From assembly GCA_903861205.1 (NCBI GenBank), contig CAIOTC010000020.1, forward strand, positions 197,273 to 231,850: DNA of 34,578 nucleotides. Direction: 5' to 3'. The position numbers and the translations under genes are program-made. Shown here piece by piece: positions 15,065-22,460 of this stretch; positions within the stretch are counted from its first letter, which is position 1; each line of letters opens with the position of its first letter. A model generated the notes under the pieces. That model was given only the letters and a program-made list of their open reading frames with translations. It did not search any database and was not told the origin of the DNA. The DNA comes from an uncultured bacterium. Its GTDB lineage: Bacteria; Patescibacteriota; Minisyncoccia; Phycocordibacterales; DATDWN01.

Positions 15065-15454
15065 TTATTTGGCGCCCGCAACCATTTCCTCCACTTTTTT
15101 CAATATGCCGTTTAAACTGTATTCCGTTTTTATAATGTATCCGTAAATACCACTTTCCATCGTTTTGGCGATATAATCCGTTTCTTCGAGCAAAGTCAGG
15201 ACGATCACTTTGGCCTCCTTGCCCCACTCATCCTCGCGCAATTTTTTGAGCATCTCCAGGCCATCCATTTTTGGCATGACAAGATCGAGCAAGATAACAT
15301 CCGGATGCAGTTCGAGCGCTTTTTTCAAACCTTCCTCGCCATCCGGAGCGCCAACCGCGTCAAAGCCGGAAAATTTCAGTTTGTCCACCAAGACAGTGTT
15401 CAAATTTGAATCATCGTCCACTATTAATATTTTCTTTTTATTTTCGTCTGTCAT
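15065..15454 (-). CDS. Response regulator receiver-domain protein
   Basis: KILIVDDDSNLNTVL, DVILLDLVMPKMDGLEML, VIVLT, K near the C-terminus. Confidence 0.95.
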   Translation of the reverse strand: MTDENKKKILIVDDDSNLNTVLVDKLKFSGFDAVGAPDGEEGLKKALELHPDVILLDLVMPKMDGLEMLKKLREDEWGKEAKVIVLTLLEETDYIAKTMESGIYGYIIKTEYSLNGILKKVEEMVAGAK

Positions 15455-15478: not shown

Positions 15479-16804
15479 TTAAAATGTCACAGTGAATGTG
15501 CTGCCTTTATTTTCCTCCGACACAAAACTAATTTTACCGCCGAGCGCATCCACTACTGATTTTACCAGATATAAGCCCAAACCGGTACCATCTTTGCCAG
15601 AAAGTCCGCGGACGTTGCCGGCGCGAAAAAGTTTGGTGAAAACTTTGTCCTGCTCGGCTTTCGGAATTCCCACTCCGTTGTCCGAAATGACAATCTGTTT
15701 TTCACTGCCAAAATCACGAAAAGCGATGGAAATTTCTCCGTCATCCGAAGTGTATTTGACCGCATTGCCGATCAAGTTTTGGATAACGATGCGCAAAAGT
15801 TTCGGATCGCTTTTGACATTTTTCAAAAGTCCGTCGTACCGCTTGTCGATCCGGATTTTTTTCCTGTCGATTTGAAGCGAGAGTTCGGACAAAACACTCT
15901 CGGAAAGTTCCTCGACATTTGTCGGTTTCGACTCGACGGACAGCTTGCCCATTTCGATTCTGGAAACGTTTAGCAAAACATCAACCAGATTGATCATTTC
16001 CTCGTTGGCCGTGCCAAGTTTGTCAACGTATTCTTTTTGCTTGTCGGTCAAAGAGCCCAAATCGCCTGAGGCCAACATTTCCGTAAACCATTTAGTGGTG
16101 GCCAGCGGTGTGCGCAGCTGATGCGAGGCCAGCGAAACGAATTCCGTTTTGGTTTGATCCAAAAGTTTCTGCTCGGTGATATCGAAAATAACCGCAAGTC
16201 CGGTGCTGGAAAAGCTGCCGGGATTTTTCATTTCGAAAATGGAAAGCAAAACCCACCTGGCGCCATTTTTTTTCGTCATCATCTGCACTTCCTGCCTGTT
16301 GATGGGCATGCCGGTTTTGTAATATCGGTGAAATTTGTCGGACTCAGCCGCAGATTCCGGCGCGAAAAGAGAAAAAAAATCCTTGTCGGCGATTTCTTCC
16401 GGCACAACCTCGAAAAAGCGCAAGGCGGCTTTGTTCGGATCGCGAATGTTTCCGTTTTTGTCGAGCAAAAGGTAAGGCACCGGCGCACTTTCGTAGAGTC
16501 GCTTGAACTGTTCCTTGGAGAGAGCCAACGATTTGGTGGCGTTCCAAACGGCCAGTTCAGAACGAGTGTTCAGGGTTAGTATCAAATAGAAAATGTAGGT
16601 AATAAGGACGACGATGGTCGCGAGCAAAATGAAAACAATGGCAAAATGCAAATCCGGCAACAACAAATCGCTTTTGAAATAATTTTCCGGATTGGCCAAA
16701 ATATCCTGAATGTAATTTTTCGACTCAAAAAGAGCAATGACCAATAGTGCAAAGAAAATAAAAGTGCCAAACAGATGTTTTATGTAAAGTTTGATCCGAG
16801 GCAT
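15479..16804 (-). CDS. PAS-domain sensor histidine kinase
   Basis: PAS region, H-box FVSLASHQLRTPLATTKWF, N-box NLIGNAVKYT, DNGVGI, GTGLGLYLVK. Confidence 0.96.
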   Translation of the reverse strand: MPRIKLYIKHLFGTFIFFALLVIALFESKNYIQDILANPENYFKSDLLLPDLHFAIVFILLATIVVLITYIFYLILTLNTRSELAVWNATKSLALSKEQFKRLYESAPVPYLLLDKNGNIRDPNKAALRFFEVVPEEIADKDFFSLFAPESAAESDKFHRYYKTGMPINRQEVQMMTKKNGARWVLLSIFEMKNPGSFSSTGLAVIFDITEQKLLDQTKTEFVSLASHQLRTPLATTKWFTEMLASGDLGSLTDKQKEYVDKLGTANEEMINLVDVLLNVSRIEMGKLSVESKPTNVEELSESVLSELSLQIDRKKIRIDKRYDGLLKNVKSDPKLLRIVIQNLIGNAVKYTSDDGEISIAFRDFGSEKQIVISDNGVGIPKAEQDKVFTKLFRAGNVRGLSGKDGTGLGLYLVKSVVDALGGKISFVSEENKGSTFTVTF

Positions 16805-16820: not shown

Positions 16821-16954
16821 GAATTAAAAATCTCTTACGACCCAACATTTTTCCGTCGCCAGAATATTTTCCTGCTGGAAAATTTCTTCCTGCTCGTGTC
16901 TTCACGCACTCCGCAATGCGCCGGAAAAGTGTCGGCTCGACGAGTTTTTAATTC
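16821..16954 (-). ncRNA. Structured leader RNA candidate, copy A
   Basis: ~134-nt element shared with 22326-22460; paired 13-bp ends; begins 6 nt after a TATAAT (16961-16966) on the minus strand. Confidence 0.65.
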
Positions 16955-16979: not shown

Positions 16980-18068
16980 TTACTTTACCTCAGTTGTCAA
17001 CAGCGGCTCGGTTTTGGTGGGTACTATGTTGAAACGCAAACGGCCGATGACTTGGCCTTGCAGAGTTTCGACGTTCACGCGCCATTTTCCGGCGGAAAGG
17101 TTGGAGCTTTCGGAATACGTTCGGAAACCATTTTCTCGGCCGCCGACCAGCGGAAGTTGTATTTTGCTTTTTGTCAGCCATTTATTTTGCGCCGGATCCA
17201 AATACTGCCATTCGTGGACAATAGTGATGTTCAAATCACCCGGAGAAAAAACCGCGCTGTAGGCGTAAACCGGATCACCGGGAACTTCTTTGTAATTTTG
17301 GTAGAGCTGAAAGTATCCGCGCCAGCCCAAATCTTCGTACGCCACAAAGTAACTGCCTGTTTGATTTTTTTGAACCAGATGAAAAACACCGGCATCTTTG
17401 AGAGAAAGTGGAATGGGCGGAATAAGATTGGTAAAATATAAAAAATTCACAATAACAAAAATGCTTCCAACAGAAATGAAAATCATTTTTCTGTTGATTT
17501 CTTTCTTTTTCTTGATGAATAAAAACAAAACGTGGACATAAGCGCCCATAAAAATAATACTGGACAGGCCAGAAAGCAAAAAAATTCCTGTTCCGATTTG
17601 GTGCATCAAAATGGGCAGAAGAAAAATGGCAAATGAATACACGGAAAGAAAGAAAAGGCTGAGTTGAAAACTTAACCTGACATAATGACGTTTGAGAGAT
17701 TCATTGGCCCAAAATGCCAAAGCTAAAAGAAAAATAAATGGCCAGGTGACGAGAATATCGGCGCTTCTGAAATAAAAAACCAGATAGGTCGACAAAATTC
17801 CGCCGAAGAAAAATTGCAGAATGTTGACGTACCAAAAATGCGCTTTGTGCGGATCTTTTTCGTCACCGGGCTGATTTTCGCGGATGTGAATGAGGGCAAT
17901 GAAAAAGCCAACGATGAAAAGATGGGCGATAATCCAAAAATTTTCCCAGAACATGTCCACGCGCCGAAGCGTCACCGCGTCAAAAACGAAACCGAAAATA
18001 AGCGAGAACGACGAAATCGGCCGCTCATAGCGAGCATACCAGTTGCGAATAGGTTCAACAAAAGCCAT
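16980..18068 (-). CDS. DUF2914-domain membrane protein
   Basis: Multiple TM helices, C-terminal W..EWQYLDP...W.VNVETLQGQVIGRLRFNIV pattern. Confidence 0.75.
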   Translation of the reverse strand: MAFVEPIRNWYARYERPISSFSLIFGFVFDAVTLRRVDMFWENFWIIAHLFIVGFFIALIHIRENQPGDEKDPHKAHFWYVNILQFFFGGILSTYLVFYFRSADILVTWPFIFLLALAFWANESLKRHYVRLSFQLSLFFLSVYSFAIFLLPILMHQIGTGIFLLSGLSSIIFMGAYVHVLFLFIKKKKEINRKMIFISVGSIFVIVNFLYFTNLIPPIPLSLKDAGVFHLVQKNQTGSYFVAYEDLGWRGYFQLYQNYKEVPGDPVYAYSAVFSPGDLNITIVHEWQYLDPAQNKWLTKSKIQLPLVGGRENGFRTYSESSNLSAGKWRVNVETLQGQVIGRLRFNIVPTKTEPLLTTEVK

Positions 18069-20117: not shown

Positions 20118-20189
20118 TGTCATTCCCGCGCAGACGGGAATCCAGAGATATACACGAAAATGTGGATTCCCGCCTGCGCGGGAATGACA
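20118..20189. repeat. Paired ATTCCC-N8-GGGAAT hairpins (dRS3-like)
   Basis: 27-nt arms TGTCATTCCCGCGCAGACGGGAATCCA / TGGATTCCCGCCTGCGCGGGAATGACA, one mismatch. Confidence 0.85.
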
Positions 20190-20214
20190 CAGGAACGAGT
20201 TTTTTGACTTACGA

Positions 20215-21519: not shown

Positions 21520-22086
21520 TCAATACTTGCGAATCACTCCTTTGACGATGGCCGCCACTTTGAGTTCGTACTGCGGATAGAGCGGTGAGTATTTTTTGTT
21601 GGCTGGTTTTAGGTACGTAATGCTCCCCTTCTTTTTGTAATATTTCATTGTCCAACCGCCGTCGATTTCGGCAATGACGATGTCGCCATCTTTCGGTTCA
21701 CCTTTGCGCTCAACAATAACTAGGTCGCCCTCCTTGATACCCTCGTCAATCATCGAGTCTCCCTTCACTTCCAAAAGGTATGTGGCTTCTTTATCTCGCA
21801 CCAAATAATCGTTGATAGACATGGTGTCGGTCATCTCCCCGTCCACCAAAGTCGGAAATCCAGCCTCGACAAGTCCGAGCATCGGCACTTCATCGAGACC
21901 AACAGCTGGCGTCAATCGTCCTTTGGCGTCCTTTTTTACCACGCCTTCGTCCACCAATTTGTTTATCAATTTGTAAACCGCATTTTTCGATTTGAAACCA
22001 ACCAGCGACATTATTTCCGCATATCCCGGCATGCGTTTGTTGCGCCTGTAAAAAGATATTATTTTATTTTTGTAGTCGTTATGCAT
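21520..22086 (-). CDS. lexA: LexA-type repressor (S24 peptidase)
   Basis: Winged-helix N-terminus; EAGFP cleavage site; GDSMIDEGIKEGDLVIVER catalytic Ser region; AEIDGGWTMKYYKK. Confidence 0.9.
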   Translation of the reverse strand: MHNDYKNKIISFYRRNKRMPGYAEIMSLVGFKSKNAVYKLINKLVDEGVVKKDAKGRLTPAVGLDEVPMLGLVEAGFPTLVDGEMTDTMSINDYLVRDKEATYLLEVKGDSMIDEGIKEGDLVIVERKGEPKDGDIVIAEIDGGWTMKYYKKKGSITYLKPANKKYSPLYPQYELKVAAIVKGVIRKY

Positions 22087-22098
22087 ATTGGGTACATA

Positions 22099-22314
22099 CT
22101 ATAGTATAAAAGTTGTGGCAAAACCGAGAGATCTGCCAAGCCAGTTTGCGCGGGAATTTGCGTTTTTGCGAATTTCCGAAAGTCTCTGCACGATGAATTT
22201 GTGCCGGCGAGACTCCTTTCCATATGGCAAACCTTTGATTATTTTGTGATCGATTTGATCATTCAAAACTTCCAACTCCCTTCGCAAAGTTCTTTCAAAA
22301 TTTTGTTTGCTCAT
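22099..22314 (-). CDS. Hypothetical protein, 71 aa, upstream in the lexA operon
   Basis: ORF 12 nt upstream of lexA, basic and helical. Confidence 0.6.
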   Translation of the reverse strand: MSKQNFERTLRRELEVLNDQIDHKIIKGLPYGKESRRHKFIVQRLSEIRKNANSRANWLGRSLGFATTFIL

Positions 22315-22325
22315 ATTTTTTTATT

Positions 22326-22460
22326 GAATCACAAATTTCTTACGATCCAACACTTTTCCGTCGCCAGAATATTTTCCTGCTGGAAAATTTCTTCCTGCTC
22401 ACCTCTTCACGGGCTCCGCAATGCGCCGTAAAAGTGTCGGCTCGACAAAATTTGCGATTC
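22326..22460 (-). ncRNA. Structured leader RNA candidate, copy B
   Basis: Homologous to 16821-16954, with a 13-bp closing stem maintained by different base pairs. Confidence 0.65.

Follow-up and report, generated by a model that had tools for sequence, protein, structure and literature searches.

A dispersed T-shaped structured repeat that favours gene ends in Patescibacteria genomes

What is the structured element that lies directly in front of a PAS histidine kinase gene in this Patescibacteria genome, and does it control that gene? The window (the whole 34,578-nt stretch analysed here) holds two copies of the element, both on the minus strand: copy A at 16821..16954 (covariance-model match 16822-16953, C20:214094-214225, 143.5 bits) and copy B at 22326..22460 (match 22327-22458, C20:219599-219730, 146.3 bits). 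A preliminary description had located both copies there and had read copy A as one of two examples of a riboswitch-like 5′ leader of a class that it did not recognise; positions and strand are borne out by the covariance-model matches. Copy A occupies a short gap between two co-directional minus-strand genes, about 26 nt past the stop codon of a DUF2914 membrane-protein gene (16980..18068, minus strand) and, as described, ending 16 nt before the ATG (16804) of the PAS histidine kinase gene (15479..16804, minus strand), which a response regulator gene follows (15065-15454). Just past copy B begins a small ORF of 71 aa (22099..22314, minus strand), with a LexA-like Peptidase_S24 gene after it (21520-22086). 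The minus strand does contain the closing stem, long second helix and two hairpins attributed to copy A, namely outer helix P1 (5′ arm 16942..16950, model columns 4-12; 3′ arm 16826..16834, columns 120-128), helix P2 (5′ arm 16918..16939, columns 15-36; 3′ arm 16838..16859, columns 95-116), the P3 arm of a three-way junction (16890..16916), in which the internal loop GGA/GA is conserved and the apical loop includes GUGAA, and the P4 arm (16861..16887), with a conserved AGCA loop at 16873-16876.

The element is far from being confined to two copies. A BLAST search of the own genome (884 kb in 24 contigs, 99% complete) with copy A matched 43 pieces, and a covariance model built on 31 full copies raised the count to about 53: 35 of them are close, scoring at least 96.9 bits, and about 18 are divergent, with scores from 80 down to 41 bits. 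Three further copies (L043-L045) are broken by another repeat, a dispersed hairpin of the form GTCATTCCCGCG...CGCGGGAATGAC that sits inserted inside each of them and also occurs in the window at about 20120-20190 (G000:C20:217392-217450) and at several other sites in the genome. Another three copies (G000:C22:70831-71016, C20:10069-10254 and C4:5663-5847) have a P3 arm enlarged by an extra hairpin of ~55 nt that is nearly alike in all three. No ORF-bearing version of the repeat was seen among the own-genome matches, in a data set of incomplete genomes, and no pair of copies in the own genome is near-identical, so recent movement is not evident there.

The folded single-strand structure is genuine and strongly conserved. 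A 139-nt stretch containing copy A has an RNA minimum free energy of -54.6 kcal/mol (z -6.35 against dinucleotide shuffles), and folded as DNA it reaches a z of -8.5, far beyond chance. The RNAalifold consensus is a T-shaped three-way junction of 47 pairs, in which a long outer stem (P1 and P2) carries two short arms, P3 with its GGA/GA internal loop and, in the own genome, a GUGAAGA-type apical loop, and P4 with its AGCA loop. Double compensatory changes, at least one each, occur in 26 of the 47 pairs (0 of 500 shuffles), including 12 of 20 pairs in P2 among the 31 copies; 96.8% of cells are paired in the consensus fold; and the covariation score is 0.401, against 0.141 with columns shuffled and at most 0.108 with pairing partners slid. 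Unpaired core columns diverge by 0.015 and paired ones by 0.21. In more distant relatives three features are mostly preserved: the internal loop CGGA...GAG, the P4 loop of AGCA type and an A following P4. Their outer stem, by contrast, is free in sequence and often runs to 20-30 bp of nearly perfect pairing. No Rfam family matches the element at the gathering cut-off, either in the window or at 20 loci around copies in the own genome and relatives, which agrees with the earlier description, whose author recognised no known class; a lone snoRNA match at a permissive threshold was put down to chance.

Substitution patterns also tell which strand folds. Among the 31 copies, G-U pairs outnumber A-C mismatches 81:10, or 50:10 once one invariant U-G pair is set aside. 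Counted over the outer stems of 157 copies, G-U pairs number 263 on the element strand and 140 on its complement (P = 1e-9); in 151 of these copies the element strand also forms the more stable fold. This asymmetry bears on the idea that the covariation was made mechanically, by arm-templated repair of quasi-palindromes, rather than by selection on the fold. In some copies (L041, L035 and L040) the outer stem is indeed perfect, and one of its arms appears to have been copied from the other, as such repair would produce. Symmetric repair, however, does not predict a G-U over A-C excess on one strand (50 versus 10), the asymmetric internal loops and the hairpin loops are invariant, and the short inner helices covary too, all of which makes a purely mechanical origin very unlikely. 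In a post-hoc comparison, the G-U excess was larger where the neighbouring gene runs in the same sense (62:19) than where it is antisense (43:35; P = 0.005), a difference that could reflect transcription-linked mutation instead of selection.

We then asked where the copies lie relative to genes. Those of the own genome are intergenic and, by crude gene calls, occur in every arrangement: co-directional sense (21), co-directional antisense (14), divergent (9) and convergent (9). A better gene caller, applied to four contigs, placed 23 of 32 copies no more than about 26 nt away from a stop codon, whichever way they are oriented. In named relatives, copies lie a median of 5 nt from the 3′ end of a gene, and many overlap the stop codon itself; convergent gaps are enriched (22 of 65, versus 48 of 308 others; P = 0.001). 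Within co-directional gaps, copies in sense and in antisense are balanced (16 versus 23). Neither the own genome nor the relatives gave any sign of a preference for gene starts. Copies adjoin unrelated housekeeping genes, which from their sequences we take to include recA, dnaJ, leuS, rnc and ruvC, with no coherent set of genes downstream. Pairs of copies enclose just ordinary housekeeping genes, and a composite transposon was rejected on that ground. Replication-strand tendencies of the copies differ from contig to contig.

This context is what decides against a cis-regulatory 5′-leader RNA that would control the downstream gene in the manner of a riboswitch. Such a leader would account for the good fold, the conserved loops and the covarying stems, and it gains some appeal from the TATAAT that does stand before copy A and from several copies that stop 10-20 nt ahead of an ATG. 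Against it, copies are found in both orientations with no preference between them, mostly behind stop codons, favouring 3′ over 5′ ends, with many in convergent gaps and with neighbours that have nothing in common; the copy A gap yielded no sigma-70-type promoter having both hexamers, and Rfam offers no matching class. The riboswitch reading of copy A is therefore largely refuted because of genomic context, and we regard it as hardly credible, for copy A as for the family. The preliminary description had itself named two outcomes that would count against its proposal: many dispersed copies whose positions have nothing to do with promoters or the starts of genes, as in a MITE or REP, which is what we observed, and a lack of covariation, where we observed the opposite. 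The structured element stands; the two-copy 5′ leader is not supported.

A different possibility is that every copy is an independently transcribed non-coding RNA gene acting in trans. Selection of one strand for folding in every context would suit such genes, as would an unpaired core that is invariant in the way of RNA families and the covariation of several helices. Yet the copies share no promoter-like sequence upstream, their outer-stem sequence is unrestricted, copy numbers are very unequal between related genomes, and interrupted, dead copies exist; a family of functional RNA genes seems to us quite unlikely. Nor do the copies as a group look like canonical U-tailed terminators, since a T-run behind the distal arm shows no excess over all copies (22, versus 30 in a mirror control).

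We next examined how far the family extends. The covariance model found matches in 33 of 61 relatives, and a broader model detected the family in 62 of 286 sampled genomes of the class and, for the phylum, in 14 of 192, with a few other classes represented. Searching 85,462 species with a DNA pattern that describes one P4 type recovered 87 stretches; a few of these are labelled just ‘bacterium’ or ‘uncultured bacterium’, and every match that names a taxon belongs to Patescibacteria (Nomura-, Zambryski-, Kaiser-, Taylor-, Vogel-, Colwell- and Nealsonbacteria and other Parcubacteria or Patescibacteria). No match to the repeat came from viral contigs, phages or plasmids, and no published description of it was found in the literature searched. 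The copies seem to form a new family of small, structured and mobile elements that spans the phylum.

Amplification is lineage-specific. Of 117 copies, 83 have their nearest neighbour in their own genome, against 12.7 expected; copy number differs widely between related genomes, and several genomes contain adjacent inverted pairs of copies. We compared two orthologous gaps across 12 congeneric genomes and found that each is occupied by the element in only part of the species. The first gap lies behind a conserved gene: copies, of differing subfamilies or orientations, are present in three species, and the remaining species have other hairpins or nothing at all. In the second, the element or its remains stand directly after the stop codon in four species, and an ordinary intrinsic terminator takes the same spot in four; the element and terminator versions have in common a T-run and the -10-like box of the next gene. 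Other species have another large hairpin or a remnant at this site; in L293, L294 and L296 (genomes G008, G006 and G013) the element after gene X is replaced by another large structured hairpin family, which has a common stem-loop of the GTTCACC...GGCTCACTCG type. Given that T-runs are not general among copies, ‘terminator’ describes only the alternative allele at this one orthologous gap. A single pair of positional orthologs in the same orientation, in G002 and G011, differs by four double compensatory changes and two wobble changes, which speaks for selection in place; this covariation could also stem from replacement by another copy.

The ends of the element are clearest in recent copies from two Zambryskibacteria genomes, where similarity ends near AAATCTC...GAGATTT. 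Terminal inverted repeats, a classical mark of MITEs, are thus represented by paired AAATCTC/GAGATTT-type ends in the Zambryskibacteria copies, and inverted complementarity specific to each copy reaches about 8-10 nt further into the flanks, past the conserved ends. A search for target-site duplication found direct repeats to be no more frequent than in shuffled pairing. These end data fit elements that inserted at, or within, dyad symmetries already present, or else a stem that lengthened once the element was in place.

To look for a mobilising enzyme, we surveyed candidate genes in the same genomes. A strand-specific fold without target-site duplication, adjacent inverted pairs, intergenic dispersal and the presence of Y1 (RAYT-like) genes in 39 of 61 relatives would all suit a mobile DNA of the REP/REPIN kind, with a single strand recognised by an HUH/Y1-type transposase and a structure that serves mobility without any host role. 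However, Y1 transposases occur in 23 of 33 genomes with the element and 16 of 28 without it (P = 0.42), and G002, G006, G029 and G034 carry 6-18 copies each with no Y1 gene. The own genome has six RAYT-like Y1 genes of about 220-240 aa (G000:C14, C16, C18, C12, C20 and C3), and no T-shaped repeat was seen within about 1.5 kb of any of them (on C14, to the contig end); the GTCATTCCCGCG repeat was likewise not seen within those distances. With the repeat associated with Y1 genes neither by place nor by presence, the RAYT/Y1 transposase was rejected as the driver, and the compensatory changes in positional orthologs are a further point against a fold that serves mobility only; we rate this explanation as rather unlikely. 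Reverse transcriptases occur in 28 of 61 relatives with no evident relation to copy number, and the repeat does not require their presence. The two in the own genome (G000:C22:95817-96425 and C12:3596-4294) are unrelated to the repeat and perhaps of the diversity-generating kind. An OMEGA/TnpB guide RNA was also discarded, as a TnpB-type nuclease gene is missing from the own genome and present in 2 of 61 relatives.

The explanation that we favour, and hold to be probable, is a non-autonomous mobile structured repeat that comes to rest at gene 3′ ends, where it persists as a putative folded transcript-end structure. An intergenic repeat of about 120-135 bp, one strand of which folds into the T shape, is amplified inside individual Patescibacteria genomes, and we infer that an enzyme inserts it by transposition. 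Most copies lie at a stop codon or directly behind one, in some cases on a site that in related species holds an intrinsic terminator, and once settled they would probably be retained, in either orientation, as the folded 3′-end structure of neighbouring transcripts, with a putative role in termination or in protection of the mRNA end. A bolder version, which we offer as a tentative possibility, is that a previously undescribed, phylum-wide class of element moves as a folded single strand of RNA or DNA, is recognised by its T-shaped junction, targets or displaces the hairpins of intrinsic terminators and is consequently kept by the host as a transcript end.

By analogy with described systems, the repeat appears closest in kind to YPAL and ERIC, from which its T-shaped junction and gene-end preference would set it apart as unusual. 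With ERIC/YPAL-type repeats it has in common a length of about 100-200 bp, a non-coding and dispersed intergenic nature, a stable fold and filled and empty sites. YPAL (RU-2) of Yersinia, about 168 bp, is a stable, non-coding, intergenic stem-loop whose targets span or abut dyad symmetry, with filled and empty sites and target-site duplications of 3-26 bp (PMC2229807), and it was listed as a stem-loop family with a conserved-structure score of 1.00 in a systematic survey (PMC2267715). The present repeat resembles it in being small, non-coding, intergenic and stably folded, with filled and empty sites in relatives; it differs in its three-way junction with conserved GGA/GA and AGCA loops, in the unrelated taxon, in the copy-specific complementarity of its flanks with no target-site duplication detected, and in a range that spans classes of a phylum. 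ERIC (IRU, RU-1), 127 bp, is likewise intergenic, dispersed in enterobacteria and folded as RNA, is co-transcribed with its neighbours in Yersinia, and has a TIR, a TSD and a terminal TA (PMC2229807). Similar in size, intergenic dispersal and folding, the present repeat has a T-shaped junction, none being described for ERIC, and is known only from Patescibacteria. REP units measure 20-40 bp, and RAYT genes have REPs in their flanks (PMC3116915); the present repeat is like REPs and REPINs a non-autonomous intergenic hairpin with inverted doublets and within-genome amplification, and unlike them flanks none of the six own-genome Y1 genes.

Integron attC sites are DNA that folds on one specific strand, and in them unpaired features are conserved and the stems vary. 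The present repeat shares these traits; its copies, however, stand singly among housekeeping genes with no cassette array seen around them, and no attC boxes (RYYYAAC/GTTRRRY) were recognised in it by eye.

Patescibacteria genomes are very small, and dispersed repeats are unexpected there; yet up to about 53 copies of this one occupy less than 0.9 Mb. Searches for riboswitches in Patescibacteria will keep matching the repeat unless it is modelled and masked. The family offers abundant natural material for studying the spread and retention of small structured repeats, and the existence of both filled and empty orthologous sites, with ordinary terminators at some of the latter, makes the domestication of repeats at gene ends testable.
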